Assembly (NCBI RefSeq): GCF_006965445.1
Contig: NZ_CP041356.1
Span: forward strand, 1,426,001 to 1,490,000
Direction of reading: 5' to 3'
DNA: 64,000 bases
Origin: Lactococcus protaetiae
Lineage (GTDB): Bacteria; Bacillota; Bacilli; Lactobacillales; Streptococcaceae
The translations under genes and the position numbers were made by a program. The notes under the pieces are model-generated. The model was not told where the DNA came from. It saw nothing but the letters and a program-made list of their open reading frames with translations, and did not search any database. Shown here in pieces: positions 48,315-64,000 of this stretch. Position 1 is the stretch's first letter. Each line of letters starts with the position of its first letter.

Positions 48315-48474
48315 GTAGTGAGAAGAGCTCACTAAAAACTGAATGGAAAAGGAGTGAAATTGAGTTCGCCCTCCTTGAAGCTATACAATTAGATAAAATG
48401 GAACCTGCACGCTATGCAGAACCTCATTTTCCTAAATTGTTACGCTTCAGAGCAGTCGGGCTCACATCTTAATT
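48315..48474 (+). repeat. clpB leader with inserted repeat element
   Basis: A leader of about 160 nt. GTGAG-AAGAG-CTCAC is a hairpin; AAAAGGAG (48347-48354) is the only good ribosome-binding site but is 120 nt from the ATG. Between them, 48395-48474 repeats the thyA element (AAAATGGAACCTGC, CATTTT, TACGCTTC, CTCACATCTT). A mini-frame from TTG 48360 follows the ribosome-binding site (12 codons at most). Confidence 0.65.
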
Positions 48475-51078
48475 ATGGACATCGAAAAAATGACAACAAC
48501 AATGCAAGAAAGTCTTGCTGCGGCGCAGCAAATTGCGCAGACGCGGCATCAGCAGGCGATTGAGATTCCGCATTTGTGGCGGATTTTTGTGCAACCGAAT
48601 AGTTTTGGAGCAAATTTTTATCAGGATTTGGGGATCAATCTGGACGAATTTACGTCCGTGATTGAGCAAGAAATTGACAAGATTCCATCAGTGGAAGGCA
48701 GTTCGGTCAGTTATGGGCAAGGGCTGAGTCAAGACTTGTTCAAACTTTTGAATGAAGCAGATCAGATTGCTAAGAAAATGGGCGATGAATATCTCTCAAC
48801 CGAAATCGTCTTGCTGGCGCTCTTTGAGTTGAGGCAAAATTCATTGACCCAATATCTGACAACGCATGGCGTGAGCAGACAAAAGGCTGATGAAGCCGTG
48901 AAAAATCTACGTGGAGGTGATAAAGTGACGAGTCAAAATGCAGAAGAAACTTACAAAGCGCTAGAAAAATACGGTGTGGACCTCGTACAACAGGTCAAAT
49001 CGGGCAAGCAAGACCCTGTGATTGGGCGTGATGAGGAGATTCGCGATGTGATTCGCGTACTTTCTCGGAAAACGAAAAATAATCCGGTGCTGATTGGTGA
49101 GCCGGGTGTTGGTAAAACAGCGATTGTTGAGGGTTTGGCGCAACGGATTGTGCGCAAGGACGTGCCTGAAAATCTGAAAGACAAGACGATTTTCTCGCTG
49201 GATATGGGCGCATTGATTGCGGGTGCGAAATATCGGGGCGAGTTTGAAGAACGCTTGAAAGCGGTGCTGAACGAGGTCAAAAAGTCTGATGGGCAAATCA
49301 TTTTGTTCATTGACGAGCTGCACACGATTGTAGGCGCAGGTAAAACCGAAGGTTCGATGGATGCAGGAAATCTGCTCAAGCCAATGTTGGCACGTGGTGA
49401 GCTGCATTTGATTGGTGCGACTACACTCGACGAATATCGTAAATACATGGAAACCGACAAGGCACTAGAACGCCGTTTTCAAAAGGTTTTAGTGACAGAG
49501 CCAACGGTTGAGGATACGATTTCCATTTTGCGTGGGCTGAAAGAGCGCTTTGAAATTCATCACGGCGTGACGATTCATGATAACGCGCTCGTGGCAGCTG
49601 CAACTCTATCCAATCGCTATATCACTGACCGCTTTTTGCCCGACAAAGCGATTGACCTGGTTGACGAAGCCTGCGCGACCATTCGGGTGGAAATGAATTC
49701 TTTGCCCACCGAGCTTGACCAAGCCAATCGTCGTCTGATGCAGCTTGAAATCGAAGAAGCAGCACTCAAAAAAGAACGCGATGATGCGTCTAAAAAACGG
49801 CTGGAAATCTTACGTGCCGAAATCGCTGAACTTCGTGAAGAAAATAATCAACTCAAAAGCCAATGGGAAGCGGAGAAAAAGGAAGTCGGCAAGATTTCTG
49901 AAAAACGCAACGAGCTAGAACAAGCACGTCATGAGCTTGATGAGGCGCAAAATGACGGCAATCTCGAAAAAGCTGCAGCGCTGCGCTATGGCAAAATTCC
50001 TGAAATTGAAAAAACGCTCAAGGAACTTGAAGAGAAGGCGAAATCTGATGATTTGAGTTTGGTGCAAGAGTCTGTCACAGAGGAGCAAATTGCCGAAGTG
50101 GTCGGGCGCATGACAGGCATTCCCATTACCAAGCTGGTTGAGGGCGAGCGTGAAAAACTACTCCATCTGCCAGAAACCTTGCACGAGCGTGTGGTGGGGC
50201 AAGATGAAGCCGTTGAGGCAGTATCTGATGCTATTATCCGTGCGCGGGCAGGCATTCAAGACCCCAATCGTCCGCTGGGTTCTTTCCTTTTCCTCGGTCC
50301 GACTGGGGTCGGTAAGACTGAGCTTGCCAAGGCGTTGGCTGAAAATCTATTTGACAGCGAGGAGCATATGGTGCGGATTGACATGAGCGAGTACATGGAA
50401 AAGCACAGTGTATCGCGGCTGGTCGGCGCCCCTCCAGGCTATGTCGGCTACGACGAGGGTGGCCAGCTGACCGAAGCCGTGCGGCGCAATCCTTACACGA
50501 TTATCCTGCTTGACGAGATTGAAAAAGCGCACCCTGACGTGTTCAATATTCTCTTGCAAGTCTTGGACGACGGGCGTTTGACAGATTCCAAAGGTGTTCT
50601 GGTTGATTTCAAAAACACAGTGCTGATTATGACGTCAAATGTTGGCTCGCAGTATTTACTTGACGCTGTCAGTGCTGACGGAAAGCTGTCAGAAGAGGTC
50701 AATGAAGCCGTCATGGCGCAACTCCGTGCGCATTTCAAACCCGAGTTTCTCAATCGGATTGACGACACGATTATCTTCAAGCCTTTGTCGCTTGACAACA
50801 TTAAAAACATTATCGTCAAAATGACGAGTCTGCTGACCAAACGTTTGGAAGAAATGGAAGTGACCCTTGAGCTGACCGACGAGGTCAAGACATGGATTGC
50901 CGAAAATGCCTACGAACCAGCCTATGGCGCGCGTCCACTGAAACGCTATCTGACAAAAGTTATTGAAAATCCACTCGCGAAATTGATTGTTGGTGGGAAG
51001 ATTTTACCGAAATCGAAGGTTTTGGTAGAGTTGAATGATGGGCAGATTGATTTTGAGATTCAGTCTATTTCTGAATAA
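48475..51078 (+). CDS. clpB: ATP-dependent disaggregase ClpB
   Basis: An 867-aa AAA+ disaggregase that rescues aggregated proteins with DnaK. It has an N-domain (to about residue 145), first AAA domain with Walker [11 protein letters not shown], a coiled-coil middle domain rich in Glu/Lys (about residues 400-520), second AAA domain with [10 protein letters not shown], and a C-terminal small domain. Control by CtsR is indicated by the upstream box. The ATG lacks a nearby ribosome-binding site because a repeat element lies in between. A near-match TGTCAG palindrome sits at 50667-50680. Confidence 0.96.
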
Positions 51079-51085
51079 AAATTAG

Positions 51086-51119
51086 AACCGCTGAGTGCAT
51101 GATTTTCAGCGGTTTTTTG
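51086..51119 (+). terminator. Terminator after clpB
   Basis: AACCGCTGA and TCAGCGGTT form a 9-bp stem followed by TTTTTT. Confidence 0.88.
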
Positions 51120-51189
51120 CTTGCTCTTGGCTGAATAAAAAGGTAAAAAATGGTAAAATTAAAGGAAGTAAAAAGAGTTTGGAGAGAGA

Positions 51190-52740
51190 ATGACAGCACA
51201 AAATCAAAGACAAGAACTACAACGAAATATCTGGTCTATTGCTGACCAAGTTCGTGGCGCTGTGGACGGGTGGGACTTTAAACAGTACATTCTAGGGATT
51301 TTGTTCTACCGTTTTATCAGTGAAAACTTTCAAAATTATATAGAAGCAGGTGACCCAGAAGTTCACTATTCGGATTACCCAGATGAAGCGATTAGCCCTG
51401 AGATTATTGATGACGCAGTAAAAACGAAGGGTTACTACATTGCACCCAGTCAACTTTTCTCAAATGTTGAGAAGACTGCGCGTGAAAATGCTGATTTGAA
51501 TACAGACCTCAAAGCAATTTTTACCGCCATCGAATCAAGTGCGATTGGCTATGCTTCGGAAAATGACATCAAAGGTTTGTTTGATGACCTTGATACAACC
51601 AGTAATCGCTTAGGAAATACGGTTGCAGAGAAGAATAAACGCTTAGCCGATGTCCTTGAAGGAATCAATCAACTGAACTTTGGTCGTTTTGAAGATAATC
51701 AAATCGATCTTTTTGGTGATGCTTATGAATTCTTGATTTCAAACTATGCCTCAAACGCTGGTAAATCAGGAGGCGAATTTTTCACACCTCAATCTGTCTC
51801 AGCACTACTAGCTAAAATTGTCATGCTTGGGAAAGATGAACATAATAAAATCAATAAAATCTATGACCCTGCCTGTGGTTCAGGCTCTCTTTTGCTTCAA
51901 GCGAGAAAGCAATTCTCAGAGCATATCATCGAAGAAGGTTTCTTTGGTCAAGAAATCAATATGACCACCTATAACCTTGCACGCATGAATATGTTTTTAC
52001 ATAATATCAACTATGATAAATTTGATATTAAACGTGGAGATACGCTTATCAATCCACTGCACAATGATGACAAGCCTTTTGATGCCATTGTCTCTAACCC
52101 TCCTTATTCCATCAAATGGATTGGTTCAGATGATCCAACTTTAATTAATGATGACCGCTTTAGTCCAGCAGGTGTTTTAGCGCCCAAATCAAAAGCCGAT
52201 TTTGCCTTTATCATGCACGCTTTAAGTTATTTGTCCGCCAAAGGTCGTGCCGCGATTGTCACTTTCCCAGGGATTTTTTATCGTGGTGGTGCCGAGCAGA
52301 AAATTCGTAAATATTTGATTGACAACAACTTTGTGGAGTCTGTTATCCAACTGCCCAGCAATCTTTTCTTTGGGACAAGTATCGCCACTTGTATCTTGAT
52401 TTTGGCAAAAAATAAGTCGAATACTGATACATTTTTTATTGATGCAAGCAAAGAGTTCAAAAAAGAAACTAATAATAACATTCTAACGACTGATAACATC
52501 GATAAAATCCTTGCTCATTTTGATAAAAAAGAAGAGTTGGACTATTTCTCAAAAGCCGTCAAATTTGATGCGATTGTCGAAAATAACTATAATCTCTCTG
52601 TTTCTAGCTATGTGGAAGCAGAGGATTTGACGGAGAAGATTGATATTGATGTACTTAATCAAGACATCAAGGTGACTGTTGAGAAGATTGATAAATTGCG
52701 AGCTGATATTGATGAGATTGTGAAGGAGTTAAGTAAATGA
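51190..52740 (+). CDS. hsdM: Type I restriction-modification, methyltransferase subunit HsdM
   Basis: A 516-aa N6-adenine methyltransferase. The N-terminal domain ([33 protein letters not shown]) is typical; SAM motif I is [16 protein letters not shown] and the catalytic motif IV is NPPYS. It methylates host DNA together with HsdS, and is required for restriction with HsdR. GGAGAGAG precedes the ATG. It overlaps the fic start by 4 bp, so it heads one long operon to hsdR with defence genes nested inside. Confidence 0.96.
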
Positions 52741-53475
52741 AAAATCTAATTTTAGAAAAACTCCTAGAAGAACGAAAAAACGGTCTTAAAGGTGGGCTTT
52801 ATCACAAAACACAAGTCAGCTTGACTTACAATTCCAACCGAATTGAAGGCAGTAAACTGACCGAAGAACAGACGCGCTATGTCTTTGAAACAAAGACGGT
52901 TGGTTTTGATGCGGACGGTCTGCCAGTTGATGATATTATCGAAACCAGCAATCATTTTCGAGCGTTTGATTATCTGCTTGACACGATTGAAGAAGATTTG
53001 AGCAAGAAAATCATCAAAACTTTTCACAAAATCCTAAAAGAAGGCACAAGCGATAGTCACAATGCTTATTTTAATGTTGGCGATTGGAAAAAAATTCCGA
53101 ATGAAGTTGGCGATATTAAGACAAGTCTGCCAGAAAATGTCGACTCAGATATTTCCAACCTTCTTGTTGAATATTTGACAAAACCAGCAGTTACTTTTAA
53201 TGATTTAATCGCTTTTCATGAGCATTTTGAGCGCATTCATTCTTTCCAAGATGGGAATGGTCAAGTTGGACGTTTGATTCTTTTTCGGGAATGCTTGAAA
53301 CAGGACATTGTGCCCTTTGTGATTGATAATGATAAAAAGTTATTTTACTATCGTGGTTTGCGTGAGTTTGCGACTCAATCGGGTTATTTGATTGAGACTT
53401 GTTTAGCGGCGCAAGATTGTTTATAAAGAGTGGGTTCAGTATTTTTATCCAGAGGTTGAGGTGGATGACGATTAA
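52737..53475 (+). CDS. Fic family protein (C-terminus frameshifted)
   Basis: A Fic-domain protein expected to AMP-ylate target proteins. The active-site loop reads [12 protein letters not shown] (canonical HxFxxGN(G)R/K with Gln for the first Arg), and the N-terminal YNSNRIEG is the usual self-inhibitory motif. The main frame stops at 53426 after AAQDCL; the next frame continues [17 protein letters not shown] to 53475, which fits a normal Fic ending. This shift needs one base less (or two more), unlike the G/C-run shifts elsewhere, so it may be a genuine mutation. It overlaps hsdM (ATGA). Confidence 0.75.
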
Positions 53476-53615
53476 GTTGTTAAAAAAACGGACAACACAA
53501 GTGCTGTCCCTCCCAGATCAATGCAAGCATTCTCCTTGGCATAGGTTGAAAAAGCTTATCTGGATGGTATTACGAAGCTTGGGAAAGAAAGGAAGCGGGA
53601 AGTTAGGAAGAAAAA
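53476..53615 (+). pseudogene. Degenerate coding remnant between fic and sir2
   Basis: In one frame the spacer reads VVKKTDNTSAVPPRSMQ..., stops, and then VEKAYLDGITKLGKERKREV-RKKK before a stop just upstream of the sir2 start. The lysine-rich tail looks like a former coding end rather than random spacer. Which gene it came from is not recognised. Confidence 0.3.
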
Positions 53616-54638
53616 ATGAAAAAGTTAAGAGAAGATATAACAAAGCAACTTAGAAGTCTAGCAATAACAAAGCAACTGAACTTTTTGATAGGTTCTGGTG
53701 TATGTTTTGATGTGATTCCGGGTATGGGTGATAAGGCCTATCGAAATGATGAAATTGAAAATAAACCATGGGTTTCTTTGAGTGTTAATGATAAAGAAGA
53801 TGTTTCAAAGAAGCTGACAGCCAAAGTATCTGAGGTTAGTAGCGAATTATTGAGTGACAGTCCTGGGGAAGATGTAGCGAATCTACAGAAATCCTTTGAT
53901 GGATTTATGCAGTCTATTGTGTCTGTATTAAATCTATCGAATTCTCGTCAGACTCCAAGAAGCGCGAATATTTTTTCTACAAATTATGACTTGTTCATTG
54001 AAAAATCTGCTGACAATGTCCTGAAAACTAACAGACTAGTTTTTAATGATGGAGCAAGTGGGTATTTTGAGCGTTATTTGGATGGACAAAATTATAATAG
54101 ATTGGTCTCCTATAAAGGACTTAACGATAACTATATCAGTGAAATCCCACAAATTTCTTTGATTAAACCTCATGGATCAATTAACTGGCAGAAAACCAGT
54201 GATGGCAAAATTCAAATAAAGAATGAAGTAGTTTCAAATTCCGAAGTGGTTAATCCTCTAGGTTTTGAATCAGAGGACACATTCTTGAATAATCACTTTC
54301 ATGAAATGCTTCGTCTTTTTCAACTAGAGTTAGATAAGCCACAAACTGTTTTATTTGTGAGTGGCTTTTCTTTTCAGGACCCTCATATCTCTAAAATGGT
54401 CTCGCGTGCTATACAAAATCCTGAATTATTAACTTATGTTTTTGCTTATGACGATAAAGCAAAAATAGATATACTTAATAATATCAAAATATCTGAGAGG
54501 GTGAACTTTAAGGTTTTAACACCAAGGGATATTTTTGAAAATGTAGAAATAGAGGATAAGTTGACACTAGAAGTTTTGACCGAGATTCTAAATGGTTCCA
54601 GTTTGGAGGATTTGAAAGAAAATGGAAGTTCCAAGTAA
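53616..54638 (+). CDS. SIR2-like protein (SIR2-HerA defence, NAD-consuming subunit)
   Basis: A 340-aa SIR2_2-type protein. An N-terminal nucleotide-binding stretch NFLIGSGVCFDVIPGMG, the FSTNYDLFIE asparagine-aspartate motif, and LIKPHGSINW with the catalytic histidine are visible; GFSFQDPHI lies near the end. Such proteins pair with HerA helicases in a known anti-phage system and deplete NAD+ on infection. It overlaps the HerA gene by 17 bp, arguing for a fixed pair. The location inside a type I RM operon between hsdM and hsdS is unusual. Confidence 0.85.
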   Translation: MKKLREDITKQLRSLAITKQLNFLIGSGVCFDVIPGMGDKAYRNDEIENKPWVSLSVNDKEDVSKKLTAKVSEVSSELLSDSPGEDVANLQKSFDGFMQSIVSVLNLSNSRQTPRSANIFSTNYDLFIEKSADNVLKTNRLVFNDGASGYFERYLDGQNYNRLVSYKGLNDNYISEIPQISLIKPHGSINWQKTSDGKIQIKNEVVSNSEVVNPLGFESEDTFLNNHFHEMLRLFQLELDKPQTVLFVSGFSFQDPHISKMVSRAIQNPELLTYVFAYDDKAKIDILNNIKISERVNFKVLTPRDIFENVEIEDKLTLEVLTEILNGSSLEDLKENGSSK

Positions 54639-56470
54639 AAAACTCGGTGTTATTGTCGGTGTGGACGGTACTGTGGCGCAAGTTGGAATGTATGATATGT
54701 CAAACGATACAAATTACATCTGGTTTGGAAATATTTTGTCAGGACCGAAAGTTGGTGCATTTTTAACAATTAATCAAAATTATTCAAAAATTATTGCTAA
54801 AGTTATCTCTGAGAAGGTAGTTGACCAGCAAAATACTATCAAGAGTACGGAGTTTGATAATAGGTATAGTAAGAACTCCATCAATAGGGTCATTTATCTT
54901 AAAACACAAGGAATAATTGAAGACGGTATATTTCAAGTAACTAGTTCTGTTGTACCGATGGTTGGGAATGAAGTCACTTTAACAACTCAAGAAGAGATAA
55001 AAATCATATATAATCTTCATCAAAATGATGCTACTATTTGTGTTGGGAAATCTATACTTGAAAATCAGCCAATACTTCTTTCAATAAATCAACTTTTTGC
55101 CAGCCATATTGGGATTTTTGGAAACACTGGAAGTGGAAAATCAAATACCTTGCACAAGGTTTTTCTTGAGTTATTTCGTTCAAAGTATTTACCCCAAATT
55201 ATCAAGCACTCTCAATTTTTCGTTATTGATTTTAATGGAGAATACACTGGAAAAGATTTGTTTGGTATTGATGAAAACCATAAGAGAATCTTTGGAATTA
55301 ATACTCGAAAACCTCAGAATGGTCAAAAACTACCAGTTAAAAAAAGTTATTTATTTGATGCAGATATCTTGTCAATTCTTTTTGACGCAAGACCTGCAAC
55401 ACAAGTTCCTTTTTTGAGAAATGCACTTCGTACTTACAGAGAAAAAATTAGTGATGGAATGTCATTTGCGAATCTTGAAATAGGACTATTAAAATCATTA
55501 ATAATTTCAACAGATAAAGTTGAAAGTAATTCTATTGATGCATGGGTTGAGGCTGCGAGTTCATTACAAATTAATAAATCGCTTTTTGACGGAATCTTGA
55601 ATAATCATTTCAAAAAAAGTTATGGAAATATGAATATCTACAACGAAAGCAATGAGGTTATCGTTGAAAATAACAATATTAGTATTAGAGGAGAGCAATT
55701 TTTTAAATTAGAGGAACTTGCTAGTGCTCTGGGTGATGCTTTTAACTCGGCAAGTGAAATTCAGAAATTGGCTTGCTTTTTACAATTTCAGAAAGTATAT
55801 GTGTCTGCATGGAAATCTACTAATATTGAGTTTATCAATCCGTTGTTTCACAGGATTAAAACAGCTTTTGACAGTTTAGAAAAAGTAGTTGAAATAAAAA
55901 ATTCTATCGAGAATGAGTTCTCAACCTTAAATATTATTTCTCTGTTGCATGCAAATCAAGAAATAACAAGATTACTGCCAATGCTTCTTTCAAAGATGAT
56001 TTATGATGAACAAAAGATTGGTGTTTCGGAAAATCAAGCAAAGCAAACTAAACATCTAATTATTGATGAGGCTCATAATATTCTAAATGACCAATTTAGA
56101 AATAATAATGACGACTGGCAAGATTATCGTTTGACGGTATTTGAAGAAATAATAAAAGAGGGACGGAAATTTGGCTTTTACTTAACCCTGAGTTCGCAAC
56201 GTCCAGCCGATATTTCACCAACGATACTTTCTCAAGTTCATAACTATTTCATTCATCGGCTGGTAAATGAAAAAGATTTGCGCATGCTCGAGAATACGAT
56301 GCCTACTCTTGATGCTAGCTCATTTCAGATGATTCCCAGTTTAGGTAAAGGAGAAGTTATAATCACAGGAAATAGTATGCAGGTTCCAGTATTTGCTAAA
56401 ATCTCAAAAGAAGAGAAGCTACGCCCATCTAGTGATGATATAAACCTGACGGAAATGTGGAGTGAAGAAA

Positions 56471-56478
<8 letters not shown>
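54622..56478 (+). CDS. HerA-like ATPase (SIR2-HerA defence, motor subunit)
   Basis: A 618-aa HerA/FtsK-superfamily ATPase (DUF87). The N-terminal barrel domain (about residues 1-150) begins LGVIVGVDGTVAQVGMYD; Walker A is GIFGNTGSGKSNTLH and Walker B is HLIIDEAHNIL; the arginine-bearing block is SSQRPADISPTILSQ. These proteins form hexameric rings that associate with SIR2 partners. The ATG follows a GAGG at about 12 nt inside the sir2 gene. Its end overlaps the hsdS start by 8 bp. Confidence 0.88.
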
Positions 56479-57666
<1,188 letters not shown>

Positions 57667-57686
57667 TTAGCAGCTATCTCTTTGTT

Positions 57687-58334
57687 TTGCGTGAAGCCGC
57701 TGAGAAAGTTGGCGTTTCGCTGGATGATTTGGTAAAAGTGATTTGGACAACGTTAGGGGAAATCGGTGAGTTTGTGCGCGGTAATGGAATGCAAAAAGCG
57801 GATTTTGTAGAAAATGGTTTTCCAGCCATTCATTATGGGCAAATTTATACAAAGTATGGACTGTCAGCTAATCAAACTTTTAGCTACGTTTCTGCTGACT
57901 TAGCGAAGAAACTCAAGATTGCTGATAAAAATGACTTGTTACTTGCGACAACCTCTGAAAATGATGAAGATGTATGTAAACCACTCGCTTGGTTAGGCGA
58001 AAAAGCTGCAATTTCGGGAGATATGATGCTTTTTCGACATCAACAAAATGTTAAATTTTTAGCTTATTACATTCAAACCACAATGTTTCAATCAGCTAAA
58101 AAGAAAAAAATTACAGGAACAAAAGTTCGACGTGTATCGTCAGCAGATTTATCAACTATGAAAATTCCAGTGCCCTCTCTGTCAGAACAAACCCACATCG
58201 TCGAAATTCTCGATCGCTTTGATACCCTCACGTCAGACCTGATAGTGGGCTTACCAAGGGAGATTGAGCTCCGACAAAAACAGTATGAGTATTGGCGAGA
58301 GCAGTTATTAAGCTTTAAAAAAATAAAATTTTAG
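57687..58334 (+). CDS. Third HsdS target-recognition module (half-subunit or fused domain)
   Basis: A 215-aa single-module HsdS: the start REAAEKVGVSLDDLVKVIWTTLGE copies the inter-module linker ending, then a target-recognition domain with GEIGEFVRGNGMQKADFVENGFPAIHYGQIYT, and the conserved end EIELRQKQYEYWREQLLSF. GTG 57687 has no obvious ribosome-binding site. The frame is open back through the GCCA repeat, so it is best seen as the third module of HsdS, separated by the repeat count in this clone. Alone, it could still act as a dimerising half-HsdS. Confidence 0.8.
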   Translation: MREAAEKVGVSLDDLVKVIWTTLGEIGEFVRGNGMQKADFVENGFPAIHYGQIYTKYGLSANQTFSYVSADLAKKLKIADKNDLLLATTSENDEDVCKPLAWLGEKAAISGDMMLFRHQQNVKFLAYYIQTTMFQSAKKKKITGTKVRRVSSADLSTMKIPVPSLSEQTHIVEILDRFDTLTSDLIVGLPREIELRQKQYEYWREQLLSFKKIKF

Positions 58335-58345
58335 GAGTTTATAGG

Positions 58346-59368
58346 ATGGGAAATGAAATCTTTGAGTATGGTTTTCACTTAGTAAGTGAATTAGAGATTG
58401 CTGCAAATTTTATTTGGGCCGGTATAAAGGAAGTCAATAAAATAAGAGACTTTGAAGTTGATATTCCAATAGAACTGTCAGACCTAATGGATAAAACTGT
58501 TGATTATGGTAGAGCAGGAGGAACTTTTCAAGAAGCTAATGCACATCTAATAGTTAGAGAAAACCAAGATAAAATATTTACGGCTCTTTACCATTTTTCG
58601 ATTGGAATTGAGAGAGTTCAAAAGACAATCCTTAAATTATATTTGTTTCCAAAGGATAGGGATGAGGATTATGAAAAGAGTGATCTTGAATTACTAAAAA
58701 GCCATAAAATGGAGGCACTTCAGCAACGCCTGAAAAGATTATTTCCAGAGCTTCATTTTGAAAAAAGAGAAAATAATCTTCTTGAACTTTTATCGCACTA
58801 TTATAATCATGAAAGGTACATGAATCTTCATGCAGACACCAAGGAGGATAATTACTATCATCTTTTTATAGAGTTTCTTAAAAGGTATTCTAAAGATTTA
58901 ACAAATAGGAAAACTGTATTAGAGGTTATTGGTAGTTCTGTTGGACGTATCATAGCAAAATACTATAGTATTCTTGAAAATTTAAGTCATGAAAAAGGAG
59001 TTTTTGTATATGAGATTAACTACCAAAAAGAGAGCAGATACGTTTATTTAGCATATCAAAATCGGAACGCTTCTTTACAAATCCAGTTTGATAAGATAAG
59101 ACGTGCAAAACAGGAGTTAATCTTGTATCTGATAGAACAGGGGAAAGCAATTTATCCAGTAGATAGTTTAGAAATTGATTCTTTAGATTTTGATTTTGCA
59201 GAGCTCCCTGATATGATAGATTACATTTTGAATGAAAATGTTCTAAATGATTTCACAGACACAGTGGAAAGCTTTGATGACGATATCTTTTATGAGGTTG
59301 AGGATAAAAAGGAATTTCAAAGAATTATAGCTGAACGGAAAGAAATTCTAGATAATTTTTATAAATGA
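58346..59368 (+). CDS. Uncharacterised protein between hsdS and prrC (340 aa)
   Basis: A soluble 340-aa protein rich in Glu, Asp, Tyr and Leu, with no membrane segment, nucleotide loop or cysteine cluster. Visible features are a helix-rich N-terminal half with MNLHADTKEDNYYHLFIEFL, a beta-like segment (VFVYEINYQKESRYVYLAYQ), and a very acidic C-terminal stretch (ESFDDDIFYEVEDKKEF). GGAG precedes the ATG. The stop overlaps an ATG leading to prrC. Not recognised. From its place in a restriction operon next to an anticodon nuclease, a defence or nuclease-control role is possible. Confidence 0.7.
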   Translation: MGNEIFEYGFHLVSELEIAANFIWAGIKEVNKIRDFEVDIPIELSDLMDKTVDYGRAGGTFQEANAHLIVRENQDKIFTALYHFSIGIERVQKTILKLYLFPKDRDEDYEKSDLELLKSHKMEALQQRLKRLFPELHFEKRENNLLELLSHYYNHERYMNLHADTKEDNYYHLFIEFLKRYSKDLTNRKTVLEVIGSSVGRIIAKYYSILENLSHEKGVFVYEINYQKESRYVYLAYQNRNASLQIQFDKIRRAKQELILYLIEQGKAIYPVDSLEIDSLDFDFAELPDMIDYILNENVLNDFTDTVESFDDDIFYEVEDKKEFQRIIAERKEILDNFYK

Positions 59369-59397
59369 TTGGTTTGGTAAAAAATAGGATAATAATT

Positions 59398-60540
59398 ATG
59401 GGAAAAACTTTGAGTGAGATTGCAGAAGAGTTAAAAGAATGCGATAAAAAAGTTCAGCTCATTTATGCTTTCAATGGAACGGGAAAAACAAGATTGTCGC
59501 GTGAATTTAAGAAATTAGTACAGCCAAGTGATGCGAAAGATATCGAAACGGATAGTATGGCTCGCGATACAATTTTGTACTACAATGCGTTTACAGAGGA
59601 TTTGTTTTATTGGGATAATGATTTAGAAGAGGATACTGATAGGAAATTAATTGTTCAGTCCAATTCTTTTATTGATTGGATTATTTTTGAGCAAGGTCAG
59701 GACCAAAGTATTATTGAACATTTTCAGCATTATACTGATAACAAGCTAGTTCCCAAATTTGAACTTCCTCCTATAAAAGATGAGAAAGGGGAAACTATTG
59801 GCTATGAAAACCACGTAGAAGCAATATCCTTCTCTTATCAGAGGGGAAATGAGGATGATTATGAATTAGTAAAAATTTCAAAAGGAGAAGAAAGTAATTT
59901 TATTTGGAGTATTTTCTACTCTCTAATTGAAAATGTTGTGGATATCTTGAATGTAGTGGAAGATAGAGAAACAGATGAATTTGATAAGTTAAAGTATATC
60001 TTTATTGATGATCCAGTGAGCTCATTAGATGAAAATCACTTGATTGAGACGGCTGTTGATTTGGGAACCTTGATAAAGTCTAGTGAATCAGATGTTAAAT
60101 TTATTCTCACAACGCATAACCCATTATTTTATAATGTATTGCACAATGAGTTCAATAAAGCAAAGAAATATTTTTTGAAGCGATTGGAAGACGGAACATT
60201 TGAACTAAAAGAACAGTCAAATGATTCTCCATTTTCGTATCATTTAACTTTGCTAGAAGAGCTTCATCATGCAATCAAAGTTAACGAGATAACCAAATAT
60301 CATTTTAATTTTTTAAGGAATTTGCTGGAAAAAACTTCAACATTTTTGGGCTATAAAAACTGGACTAGCTTATTGCCAGAAGATAGCAGAAAGGCTTACG
60401 AAAGCAGGATTATAAATATTTCAAGCCACTCTAAATATACAACAGATGAAATCGCTGAAGCAAATGATCAAGAAAAACAAATGTTAAAATATCTTGTTGA
60501 ACTGTTAGAAGACACCTATAAATTTAATAAGGAGCAATAA
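59398..60540 (+). CDS. prrC: PrrC-type anticodon nuclease
   Basis: A 380-aa protein closely following the PrrC pattern: [16 protein letters not shown], then [20 protein letters not shown] as Walker [29 protein letters not shown] as the ABC signature-like block, and [16 protein letters not shown] as Walker B. The C-terminal nuclease has the Arg-xxx-Glu pair in [17 protein letters not shown] and the His in [12 protein letters not shown], the catalytic triad of PrrC. PrrC is kept silent by the type I enzyme and cuts tRNA-Lys when a phage inhibitor targets restriction. ATG 59398 is preferred over 59365. The hsdS-prrC-hsdR order is classic. Confidence 0.9.
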
Positions 60541-63500
60541 TGCAAGAAGCAACCGAAACTTCCCCAATCATAGAATCCAACAACTTCATCGTCCTTGACA
60601 AATGGACAAAACTTGAACAAAAAGGGAGCTTTCAATCTGAGGCAGACCTTGAACGTGAGATGATTTCAGATTTGCAACAGCAAGGCTATGATTATGCTAA
60701 TTATTTAGTGACACCAGAAGCCTTACTTGGAAATTTGCGGCTTCAACTGGAAGATTTAAATGCTGTTCATTTTTCAGATAGTGAGTGGGAACGTCTTTTA
60801 TCAGAATACATTAATAAACCAAGTGATGGCATTATCGAATGTACACGTAAAATTCATGATGACCATGTCTATGATTTTATTTTTGATGATGGGCATATTC
60901 AAAATATTTATCTATTGGATAAGAAAAATATTGCGCGCAATAAAGTCCAAGTCATCAATCAGATGAAGCAAAAAGGCAGTCATGCTAATCGTTACGATGT
61001 GACGATTTTAGTGAATGGTCTGCCTTTGGTGCAGATTGAATTGAAAAAGCGTGGGGTATCCATTCGGGAAGCCTTTAATCAGATTCATCGTTATAGTAAA
61101 GAAAGCTTTAACGGAGAAACTTCTCTTTTCAAGTATCTCCAAATTTTTGTGATTTCAAACGGCACAGAAACCCGTTATTTTGCTAATACCACAAAACGGG
61201 ATAAAAATTCCTATGATTTTACCATGAATTGGGCGCGTAAAGATAACGAGCCGATTAAAGATTTGAAAGATTTTACGGCGACTTTTTTAAGTAAACGAAC
61301 ACTACTCAATGTTTTGATGAACTATTCGGTGTTTGATTCAAGTAACACGCTTTTAATCATGCGTCCTTATCAGATTGCTGCAACGGAGCGTATTCTTTGG
61401 AAAATTAAATCCGCTCATGATTCAAAATTAAAAGCAGGGATTGAAACAGGGGTTATATCTGGCACACTACAGGCTCTGGTAAAACGTTGACCTCGTTTAA
61501 AGCTGCCCGCCTTGCGACGGAGCTGGAGTTTGTTGACAAAGTTTTATTTGTGGTAGATCGAAAAGATCTCGACTATCAGACGATGAAAGAATATCAACGT
61601 TTTTCACCAGATAGTGTGAATGGTTCTGATAGCACAGCTGGCTTGAAGAGAAATATTGAAAAAGAAGACAATAAAATCATTGTGACGACCATTCAAAAGC
61701 TCAATCATCTCATGAAAACGACAGAGGCACATGAGATTTATGACAAGCAAGTGGTCTTTATCTTTGATGAATGCCATCGTAGTCAATTTGGTGAAGCACA
61801 AAAGAATCTGAAAAAGAAGTTTAAGCATTATTACCAATTTGGCTTTACAGGGACACCAATTTTTCCTGAAAATGCTTTGGGGAGTGAAACAACAGCTTCC
61901 GTATTTGGGCGAGAATTACATTCATATGTGATTACGGATGCCATTCGCGACCAAAAAGTTTTAAAATTTATGGTGGATTATAATGATGTTCGTCCACAGT
62001 TTGCAAGGCTAGAATCTGAAACAGATGATCAGAAATTATCAGCGGCTGAAAATCGACAAGCCTTACTTCATCCCACACGGATTCATGAAATTTCAGACTA
62101 TATCTTAAATCATTTTGCGCAGAAAACGCACCGAACAGCAGGAAAAGGGTTTAATGCTATGTTTGCTGTATCAAGTGTCGAAGCAGCGAAACTTTACTAT
62201 GAAGAACTCCAAAAATTACAAGAAAAATCTGAGAAGAAGCTGACGATTGCGACCATTTTTTCTTTTGCAGCAAATGAAAACCAAAATGCGATTGGTGATA
62301 TTGAAGATGAAAGCTTTGAACCAACAGCATTAGATTTATCTGCAAAAGAATTTCTGACGAAAGCGATTGACGATTATAATCACAGCTTTGGTACAAGTGA
62401 ATCAATTGAAAAATTTGAACAATATTACAAACGATTAGCTGAAAAAGTTAAAAACAAAGAAGTAGATTTATTGATCGTCGTCGGGATGTTTTTGACAGGC
62501 TTTGATGCGCCGACATTAAATACCTTATTTGTGGATAAAAATCTGCAGTATCATGGCTTGATTCAAGCCTTTTCACGGACTAACCGAATTTATGATGCGA
62601 CCAAATCTTTTGGAAATATTGTGACCTTCCGTGATTTGGAAAGTAAAACAAAAGCAGCGATTACTCTATTTGGAAAATCACAAACAGCAGAAGTTCTCCT
62701 TGAACGACCATATAACGAATATATGAATGGCTTTAAAGATGATGAAACTGATGAAGCTAGGCGAGGTTATTTAGATGTTGTTCATGAGCTAAAAGAGAAA
62801 TTTCCAGAGCCAGGTAAAATTGTTAAGGAAGTAGATAAAAAGCAATTTGTTAAACTCTTCGGCGAATTTTTGAAACTGGATAATATCTTGCAAAACTATG
62901 ATGAATTTGCAGGATTGCAAGCTTTACAAGAAATTGATTTATCAGATGAGCAGGCGGTTGAGGAACTTAAAACAAAATTTTATTTAGATGATGAAAAGAT
63001 TCAGGAGCTTGAACAACTAGAAATTCCAAATGTTCGAGAAATACAAGATTATCGCTCAACTTATAATGATATTCGCGAGTGGTATACGAATGAACGGCGG
63101 AATAAAAAGCAAGGAGAATCAACTGTAGATTGGGATAGCGTTACTTTTGAAGTAGAGCTCTTGAAATCCCAAGAAATTAATTTGGACTATATTTTGGAAC
63201 TTATTTTTGAAACAAATAAAAAGGTTTCGGATAAAGATAAGCTGATTGATGAAATTATAGGGACAATCCGTGCGAGCGTTGGAAATCGTGCGAAGGAAAG
63301 TCTAATTGTAGATTTTATCCGTCATACAGACATTGATGCGATTAAAAATCGTCCAGAAATTCTTGAGAAATTTTATACTTTTGCGCAAAAAGAGCAACAA
63401 AAAGAAATGATCAAACTCATTAAAGAAGAAGGGCTAAATGAACAAAGTACAAAACGTTATATTCAAGCTTCGCTTAAACGCGAGTATGCAAGTGAAAATG

Positions 63501-63629
63501 GAAATGAGCTCAATGAAACATTGCCAAAAATGAGCCCTTAAATCCAGCATATCACACCAAAAAACAAACGGTCTTTGAAAAGCTCAGTGCTTTTGTAGAG
63601 AAATTTAAGGGATTGGTGGAAAATTATAA
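60540..63629 (+). CDS. hsdR: Type I restriction endonuclease/translocase HsdR (three frameshifts as assembled)
   Basis: A protein of about 1,030 aa once joined. The nuclease domain (frame from 60540) contains [14 protein letters not shown], a PD-(D/E)xK core. The frame breaks in ACAGGGGTTATATC (61452-61455); one added G restores [15 protein letters not shown], the Walker A motif. The motor carries [13 protein letters not shown] and the later FSRTNRIY motif. A second shift at AGCCCTTA (63535) and a third at AAGGGATTGG (about 63609), each repaired by one C or G, give [15 protein letters not shown] and a normal ending FKGIGGKL. HsdR cuts unmodified DNA after translocation. Its start overlaps the prrC stop. 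Confidence 0.85.
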
Positions 63630-63950: not shown

Positions 63951-64000
63951 ATGGGTTATTACGATATTCTTGAAAAAAATAGAAATATTTTACTTTTTAT
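63951..64000 (+). CDS. Start of a gene cut by the window end
   Basis: ATG at 63951 preceded by GGGAGAAGGGAAGAG opens a frame (MGYYDILEKNRNILLF) that runs off the window. It cannot be identified from 16 residues. Its nearness to hsdR makes it a candidate further member of the defence locus. Confidence 0.5.
   Translation, partial: MGYYDILEKNRNILLF

Follow-up and report, generated by a model that had tools for sequence, protein, structure and literature searches.

Type I restriction-modification (R-M) enzymes carry out restriction as complexes of HsdR, HsdM and HsdS, and for the EcoprrI/PrrC pair it is established that the anticodon nuclease PrrC is kept latent on such a complex and cleaves tRNA once a phage has disabled it. 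Here we analyse a type I R-M operon inserted between clpB and purM in Lactococcus protaetiae (assembly GCF_006965445.1, contig NZ_CP041356.1); the window, i.e., the whole analysed stretch of 64,000 nucleotides, covers positions 1426001–1490000 of a single 2,696,018-base contig. The operon occupies 51190–63541 of the plus strand in the order hsdM, fic, sir2, herA, hsdS (two modules), a third recognition module, a 340-aa gene, prrC and hsdR. Comparison of the window proteins with Pfam, PADLOC and NCBIfam matched HsdM, Fic (PF02661), SIR2_2, DUF87/HerA, three Methylase_S modules, HSDR_N, TIGR00348 and PADLOC PrrC, so that the one-strand gene list of a preliminary description of this DNA is borne out. 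Related arrangements are on record in the excerpts of the literature cited here. SIR2-HerA pairs of Streptococcus thermophilus are inserted between or downstream of R/M systems, and one cloned pair protected against phage sk1, and with another pair, resistance to streptococcal phages reached three logs (PMC11514479). In Escherichia coli, the defence module RptR-DarTG2 is embedded between hsdS and hsdR, a place called a potential recombination hotspot (PMC12255303). Monitoring of the type I enzyme by PrrC and depletion of nicotinamide adenine dinucleotide (NAD) by SIR2 proteins are both stated (PMC12479173, PMC12322248, PMC11514479). As to specificity subunits, Helicobacter pylori JHP1422, an HsdS with three target recognition domains (TRDs), methylates two motifs (PMC3936762), poly-G slippage in NgoAV fuses hsdS1 and hsdS2 and shifts specificity (PMC9577141), repeats of this kind are stated to occur in about 10% of type I systems (PMC7394358), and three-TRD HsdS subunits are credited to Atack et al. 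2020 (PMC12429846).

The L. protaetiae operon shares a conserved scaffold with two congeners that fill it differently. Some HsdM match was found in 13 of 18 congeneric genomes (the window's own included, one genome per species), and besides the window only G001 and G007 matched closely, at 98 and 96% identity. Their loci, L112 in G001 and L113 in G007, both retain hsdM, fic and hsdR, with identities to the window of 96–98% for HsdM, 92.5% for Fic and 93–95% for HsdR; L112 lies at the window's chromosomal place and L113 elsewhere. DNA identity to L112 is 89.5% over 48457–53458 and 90.8% over 60551–63629, and to L113 89.4% over 51109–53464 and 88.9% over 60524–63620, and between these two regions matches to either locus occur only as short stretches in hsdS. 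The sir2-herA pair, the recognition domains and the cargo between hsdS and hsdR differ as one block between the congeners. The interval from fic to hsdS (slot A) holds a 256-aa open reading frame (ORF) and an 808-aa HamB-like helicase (E 4.3e-39) in L112, a pair that resembles Hachiman solely in HamB and in gene order, since no Pfam or PADLOC match was found for the 256-aa ORF; in L113 the slot is occupied by a 265-aa ORF together with a DUF2806 protein (E 8.4e-25). The interval from hsdS to hsdR (slot B) contains a distantly related PrrC (PADLOC E 5.9e-84) together with a 417-aa second Fic in L112, and a 189-aa ORF in L113. A sir2 search of the 18 genomes returned three matches, the window and weak ones in G004 and G017 (32–37% identity, partial protein), and none in G001 or G007.

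The fic gene is part of the scaffold in this genus, as it is kept in all three scaffolds found while the contents otherwise differ. The possibility of a one-off insertion of fic-sir2-herA, raised in the preliminary description, thus applies in part: sir2-herA is one of three contents seen, but fic stands outside the insertion. The embedded Fic matches PDC-S04 inside the R-M locus (PDLC04836, E 2.4e-100), a PADLOC label that presumably denotes an embedded candidate system. Among 395 genomes of the order, 17 (the window's own included) had a Fic match at E ≤ 1e-20; one of the 17 Fic places in the 16 other genomes (L152) adjoins a labelled type I R-M locus, and none lies between labelled hsdM and hsdS, with labels derived from window-like queries that distant R-M genes could escape. 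An hsdM-fic joint as a general arrangement was rejected on this count, and the joint appears confined to this genus within the genomes searched.

These observations are probably best explained by a type I chassis with two cargo slots, in which PrrC serves as guard, SIR2-HerA rides as a passenger and the third recognition domain is possibly phase-variable. The scaffold of hsdM, fic and hsdR is near-constant between congeners, and a block consisting of slot A, the hsdS recognition domains and slot B would be exchanged as a cassette, probably by homologous recombination between the conserved sequences on either side. Of the cargo seen in L. protaetiae, SIR2-HerA fills slot A, and the 340-aa protein and PrrC fill slot B. 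Unmodified phage DNA would be cut by the R-M enzyme; PrrC would be kept latent by the R-M complex and would cut tRNA if a phage disables that complex; SIR2-HerA would act alone as an abortive NAD-depleting pair that shares only transcription with the operon; and a tetranucleotide tract would slip to give a two-domain or three-domain HsdS, adding or changing a recognised sequence.

The adjacent SIR2_2 (43.1 bits, cut-off 24.5) and HerA (56.2 bits, cut-off 23.2) proteins constitute a SIR2-HerA pair. Both score far under the cut-offs of the NCBIfam SIR2-HerA equivalogs (66.5 of 500 and 141.8 of 800 bits), which places the window pair in another subfamily. Profile comparison relates SIR2 and HerA to the two partner chains within single solved entries such as 8yhx and 8j4u, and TNYD and KPHGS, which we take to be catalytic motifs, are invariant across the four sequences compared. 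Plasmid relatives are 53–59% (SIR2) and 61–63% (HerA) identical to the window proteins, and no R-M gene is annotated within 8 kb on either side of them (or to the record end) in the incomplete plasmid gene tables; upstream of sir2, window and plasmid copies share only 7–11-base matches. A Fic-SIR2-HerA unit was considered, since a Leuconostoc plasmid has that order, and rejected: the plasmid Fic shares just 23% identity with that of the window, and the window's fic persists in both congeners, neither of which has sir2-herA there.

The preliminary description had understood the operon as a layered abortive-infection device in which R-M failure could trigger tRNA cleavage and SIR2-HerA shares the expression of the operon. 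In its strongest form, this reading would make R-M, Fic, SIR2-HerA, the 340-aa protein and PrrC a dedicated, co-evolved programme whose abortive effectors fire when restriction fails. Tight packing on one strand, the usual place of PrrC and the recurrence of SIR2-HerA with type I R-M agree with such a device. The SIR2 profile matched in 10 of 335 Streptococcaceae genomes, including the window's; six of the nine non-self loci (L226, L227, L228, L230, L231 and L232) have the order hsdR-sir2-herA-...-hsdS-...-hsdM, in L219, located at the beginning of a contig, hsdS and hsdM follow sir2-herA, and in L225 and L229 no type I frame surrounds the pair, L225 having a 120-aa hsdS-like fragment after herA. 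However, the place of SIR2-HerA relative to hsdM, hsdS and hsdR varies between scaffolds, the two congeners with a near-identical scaffold hold other cargo, and the plasmid relatives have no annotated R-M neighbour. We also scored the best 80 of 183 HerA loci, taken from named genomes, by a loose rule (labelled type I genes within eight ORFs on the same strand). Of the 79 scorable loci, 6 had labelled type I genes to either side, 10 to a single side and 63 to neither, the last figure being an upper bound because many contigs are short; L070 was left unscored, though R-M genes precede herA there. Among the six two-sided loci, L025 is interrupted by opposite-strand genes, and in L047 one of the flanking products is a 1304-aa methylase-like protein; the HerA and SIR2 sets overlap in that L016 is the same contig as L230. 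On this evidence a layered device including SIR2-HerA is very unlikely, and SIR2-HerA is more likely an autonomous passenger than a device part. The other part of the claim, that sir2-herA is unusually placed between hsdM and hsdS, stands: the order hsdM, sir2-herA, hsdS occurs in none of the 79 scorable HerA loci and in none of the nine non-self SIR2 loci.

Two features of these SIR2-HerA loci are recorded here as side observations. A 457-aa protein follows herA in L219, L226, L229 and L232 (90–100% identical among the four); the copy that was scanned, that of L226, belongs to SIR2_2 as a second such protein and has a ThsA-like match. In L219, two type I loci are apparently joined, as sir2-herA-(457-aa)-hsdS-x-hsdM of one type I kind is followed by AbiD and then by hsdR and a fused three-module hsdS of the other kind, in the order AbiD-hsdS-hsdR; the fetched sequence contains only the one hsdM.

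A search with HsdR in the 395 order-level genomes gave 36 genomes with E ≤ 1e-100, and the 19 relatives L206–L224 considered below are all non-self matches listed with 62–75% HsdR identity. Slot A is filled in 8 of the 19, with RhuM (PADLOC candidate PDC-S05) in L207, L217, L221, L223 and L224, AbiD in L219 and L222, and another ORF in L215; the hsdM before AbiD in L219 is of another kind. In L222 (6485–7783), a 117-aa N-terminal fragment of RhuM lies beside a full-length AbiD match between hsdM and hsdS, which we read as a trace of cargo replacement. The operon could instead be an ordinary defence island, built by independent insertions and with slots that have no functional meaning. That R-M loci can harbour other defence genes is already on record (PMC12255303), and slot A is empty in 11 of the 19 relatives. 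Yet where it is filled the cargo is defence or candidate-defence by annotation in seven of eight, prrC occupies slot B in 8 of 19 and the gene order of the operon is preserved, so that we regard an ordinary island as unlikely.

PrrC lies between hsdS and hsdR not only in the window (PADLOC PDLC02360, E 2.1e-142) and those eight relatives but also in an Enterococcus and on an E. coli plasmid. The earlier proposal that PrrC is under R-M control is a fair one, given that hsdS-prrC-hsdR is its common setting, and by analogy PrrC probably guards the R-M complex. LRNLLEKT and SSHSK occur in the window PrrC, and the R, E and H letters match in L112, L120 and L207 in an alignment read by eye; we assume that these C-terminal Arg, Glu and His residues represent the catalytic triad. 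No solved PrrC relative was found. The 340-aa ORF upstream of prrC had no match in Pfam, PADLOC, NCBIfam or PHROGs at curated cut-offs or the E-value limits applied; its relatives are six plasmid records, the best at 34% identity, and a weak match in one of 394 other order-level genomes. It contains RYMNLH, which would fit R-x4-6-H, presumably the HEPN RNase motif. The H recurs in L115 and L117 and not in L118, L233 or L234, and as the motif is not constant among relatives we make no HEPN assignment. Separately, we note that the relatives in L115 and L116 lie on Lactococcus plasmids with no annotated R-M gene in the stretch, that a small protein with a sub-threshold PBECR4 match is encoded about 1.3 kb downstream of the L115 copy, and that on the viral contig L233 the relative is followed by adenine-methylase-like and HerA-like ATPase genes, as read from translations.

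The hsdS region contains (AGCC)8.25 ahead of the third recognition module. No other run of four AGCC copies exists in this genome, and 16 of 17 congeners have none at all, with one match in the remaining congener. Counted with a half-HsdS profile built from the same loci, HsdS has three modules in 13 of the 19 order-level relatives (the first module of L206 being partial) and two in six, and two modules are likewise found in L112, L113, L008 and L120. A tandem repeat of 4–5 bp is situated in the TRD2-TRD3 linker of all 13 three-module relatives and of the window; these 14 linkers measure 82–189 bp, and the units (AGCC, GCCT, AGAC, AGAGT, ACAGT, ACAGC and AACGG) are present in 2.8–25.25 copies, varying between species. 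When each linker was shuffled 200 times by single bases, no shuffle was as good in 13 of the 14, and two were in L224. In the ten two-module loci, no tract of at least four copies of a 4–7-bp unit was found between hsdM and hsdR. Only eight such tracts occur in 460,920 bases of relatives, seven at hsdS and the eighth in L121, and the sole one in the window is also at hsdS. The units are never a multiple of three, and module 3 is fused in frame in L206, L217, L219 and L222 and out of frame in nine relatives and the window. In a tree of 23 HsdM rows (L206 omitted as too short, L219 on a very long branch), the drawn topology requires 3 changes of the three-module label, compared with a mean of 7.8 for shuffled labels. 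A unit that is not a multiple of three, followed by a module in another frame, is what phase variation would entail, and the repeat is most simply read as a toggle between two-domain and three-domain HsdS. A further-reaching idea, which we find quite improbable, is a phase-variable guard: slippage would alter the modified DNA, complex assembly and the firing threshold of PrrC, and specificity and abortive cargo would be exchanged as one cassette, giving each specificity its own back-up killers.

The state of the scaffold genes bears on whether the enzyme works in this strain. As sequenced, the final residues of Fic fall in another frame near 53417, hsdS shifts frame between modules 1 and 2, and hsdR shifts before the helicase part and again near its end; HsdS and HsdR frames are not intact in the window, and both are open in L112 and L113. 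The active-site loop of Fic carries two substitutions relative to HPFQDGNGRVGR in both congeners, and these do not stem from a frame change. The frame breaks in three scaffold genes and the loop substitutions would suit a decaying locus, in which hsdS, hsdR and fic have become pseudogenes, leaving just the autonomous cargo functional. The window was compared with about 78 kb of G001, mostly syntenic, from which 59 long ORFs were fetched and 39 matched the window. Single-base breaks of the same kind relative to this congener also occur in unrelated genes at about 17.5 kb and 20.2 kb, with a probable further one near the start of purF (46757), and point equally to sequence error. Moreover, ratios of nonsynonymous to synonymous substitution rates (dN/dS) between window and congeners are 0.034–0.141 for hsdM, fic and hsdR, so that these genes appear to be under strong purifying selection. 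From the breaks in unrelated genes and the low dN/dS, we read the frame breaks as sequence error or very recent decay. A decaying locus is doubtful, though it is the alternative to which we give most weight. Programmed switching was rejected as a cause of the breaks, since similar single-base breaks affect unrelated genes in the window.

Several points weigh against the chassis with exchangeable cargo. With hsdS, hsdR and fic broken as sequenced, the R-M enzyme may lack activity in this strain, or the assembly may contain errors, and the repeat copy number itself may be wrong. The swap rests on three scaffolds in the congeneric genomes, one genome per species, and in the wider relatives slot A is often empty and slot B lacks prrC in 11 of 19. 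Since HsdS of the two nearest congeners has just two modules, a third one is not constant, and the well-supported branches of the HsdM tree force only one change, against the three drawn. Tracts in 6 of 13 relatives comprise fewer than four copies (2.8 to 3.8) and may be fixed, and with one genome per species there was no second isolate with another copy number in which slippage could be seen. Finally, promoter and terminator counts do not exceed chance level, which leaves room for separate promoters.

Regarding the layout of the operon (Table 1), the preliminary description had reported overlaps mostly of 4–17 bp. This is true of most joints, where the overlaps span 1–17 bp (hsdM/fic 4 bp, sir2/herA 17, herA/hsdS 8 from the ATG, 340-aa/prrC 4 and prrC/hsdR 1), but not of gaps of 189 bp between fic and sir2, 20 bp between modules 2 and 3 and 11 bp between module 3 and the 340-aa ORF. 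Its operon reading likewise stood as regards content and overlooked the frame breaks in fic, hsdS and hsdR and the AGCC tract. Between 50900 and 63900, 8 terminator-like sites were observed (7.3 ± 2.5 expected), of which the three on the plus strand all lie within hsdM or fic, and 47 promoter-like sites (44.8 ± 6.5 expected); a single transcript across the operon is plausible. A minus-strand terminator-like hairpin at 53490–53509 sits in the fic-sir2 gap and is perhaps a relic of insertion.

Table 1 Features of the operon and of its downstream edge, in window coordinates
Feature	Coordinates	Strand	Match or remark
hsdM, type I methyltransferase subunit, 516 aa	51190..52740	+	TIGR00497 674.9 bits (cut-off 242.75)
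fic, 229 aa as read, C-terminal end in other frame	52737..53426	+	PADLOC PDC-S04
fic-sir2 gap, 189 bp	53427..53615	.	DNA similarity to both congeners ends at 53458/53464
sir2, 340 aa, slot A cargo	53616..54638	+	SIR2_2
herA, 618 aa, slot A cargo	54622..56478	+	DUF87/HerA
hsdS module 1 (TRD1 and conserved region)	56471..57081	+	ORF as sequenced continues to 57283 owing to frame change before module 2
hsdS module 2 (TRD2)	57082..57666	+	Frame crosses repeat, then stop
(AGCC)8.25 tandem repeat, TRD2-TRD3 linker, putative phase-variation tract	57630..57662	+	
Third recognition module (TRD3)	57687..58334	+	Different frame, open back to repeat
340-aa ORF, slot B cargo	58346..59368	+	
prrC, anticodon nuclease, 391 aa (first ATG) or 380 from 59398, slot B cargo	59365..60540	+	
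hsdR N-terminal part (nuclease domain)	60540..61490	+	HSDR_N E 3.1e-51
hsdR helicase part, other frame; more frame changes near 3' end	61487..63541	+	TIGR00348 417.6 bits
935-aa helicase gene, start; leaves window	63951..64000	+	Next to hsdR in one congener too

The system is probably of an IC-like subtype. A 12-bp repeat of only 1.9 copies occurs at 56970–56992 in the conserved region of hsdS, L211 and L212 have a 48-bp, four-copy 12-bp repeat, and we take a tetra-amino-acid (TAEL-type) repeat in the central region of HsdS as a type IC mark. Downstream, the island continues beyond the window into the 935-aa helicase gene (L272, 452–3259), and purM comes after the island in the same genome. 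The helicase is 74% identical to that following hsdR in L113, which itself shows a C-terminal DUF2726 match and Mokosh-like PADLOC hits; L112 has no such ORF between hsdR and purM. Among 13 clpB loci in the genus, clpB is followed by hsdM in two (the window and G001), by purM within the fetched flank in four, which represent the site as it looks when no island is present, and neither is visible in the short fetched flank in seven.

The three congeners provide a natural experiment, in which one R-M chassis with different contents could reveal whether embedded defences depend on the host operon or ride in it. If the repeat slips, the locus would further show how a type I enzyme handles an added recognition domain and whether control of PrrC changes. 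Gene-list readings of defence islands need relatives, as sir2-herA resembled a device part and is more likely a passenger.

In the open-licence papers searched, we did not find exchange of a whole cargo and specificity block in one congeneric scaffold, the order hsdM, sir2-herA, hsdS, or a constant repeat before the third recognition module; a repeat before a third TRD was likewise absent from the excerpts of PMC6241649, PMC10790761, PMC10030836 and PMC7154626. We do not claim the repeat with three TRDs as new, since Atack et al. 2020 may already have described it. Among characterised systems, the type IC locus EcoprrI-PrrC resembles the window in its hsdM-hsdS-prrC-hsdR order, exemplified by the E. 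coli plasmid, whose PrrC is 51.5% identical to that of the window, and differs in that the window adds fic, two cargo sets, the third recognition module and the repeat tract. SIR2-HerA (Gao_19, Nezha) likewise consists of adjacent SIR2_2 and HerA, which in the window sit between hsdM-fic and hsdS. The pairs of S. thermophilus, from the same bacterial family, are also found at an R-M locus, but the excerpted report describes neither the order hsdM, sir2-herA, hsdS nor cargo exchange in one scaffold (PMC11514479). The RptR-DarTG2 island, as excerpted, has one slot, is controlled by a repressor and comes with no mention of a third recognition domain (PMC12255303). Compared with JHP1422 and NgoAV, the window has a 4-bp unit (4–5 bp in relatives) located upstream of a third module, itself placed after a two-module HsdS. 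Embedding, SIR2-HerA beside R-M, PrrC, three-TRD HsdS and repeat switching all have precedents singly; the parts are of known kinds, and what is new is their combination and the swap between congeners.

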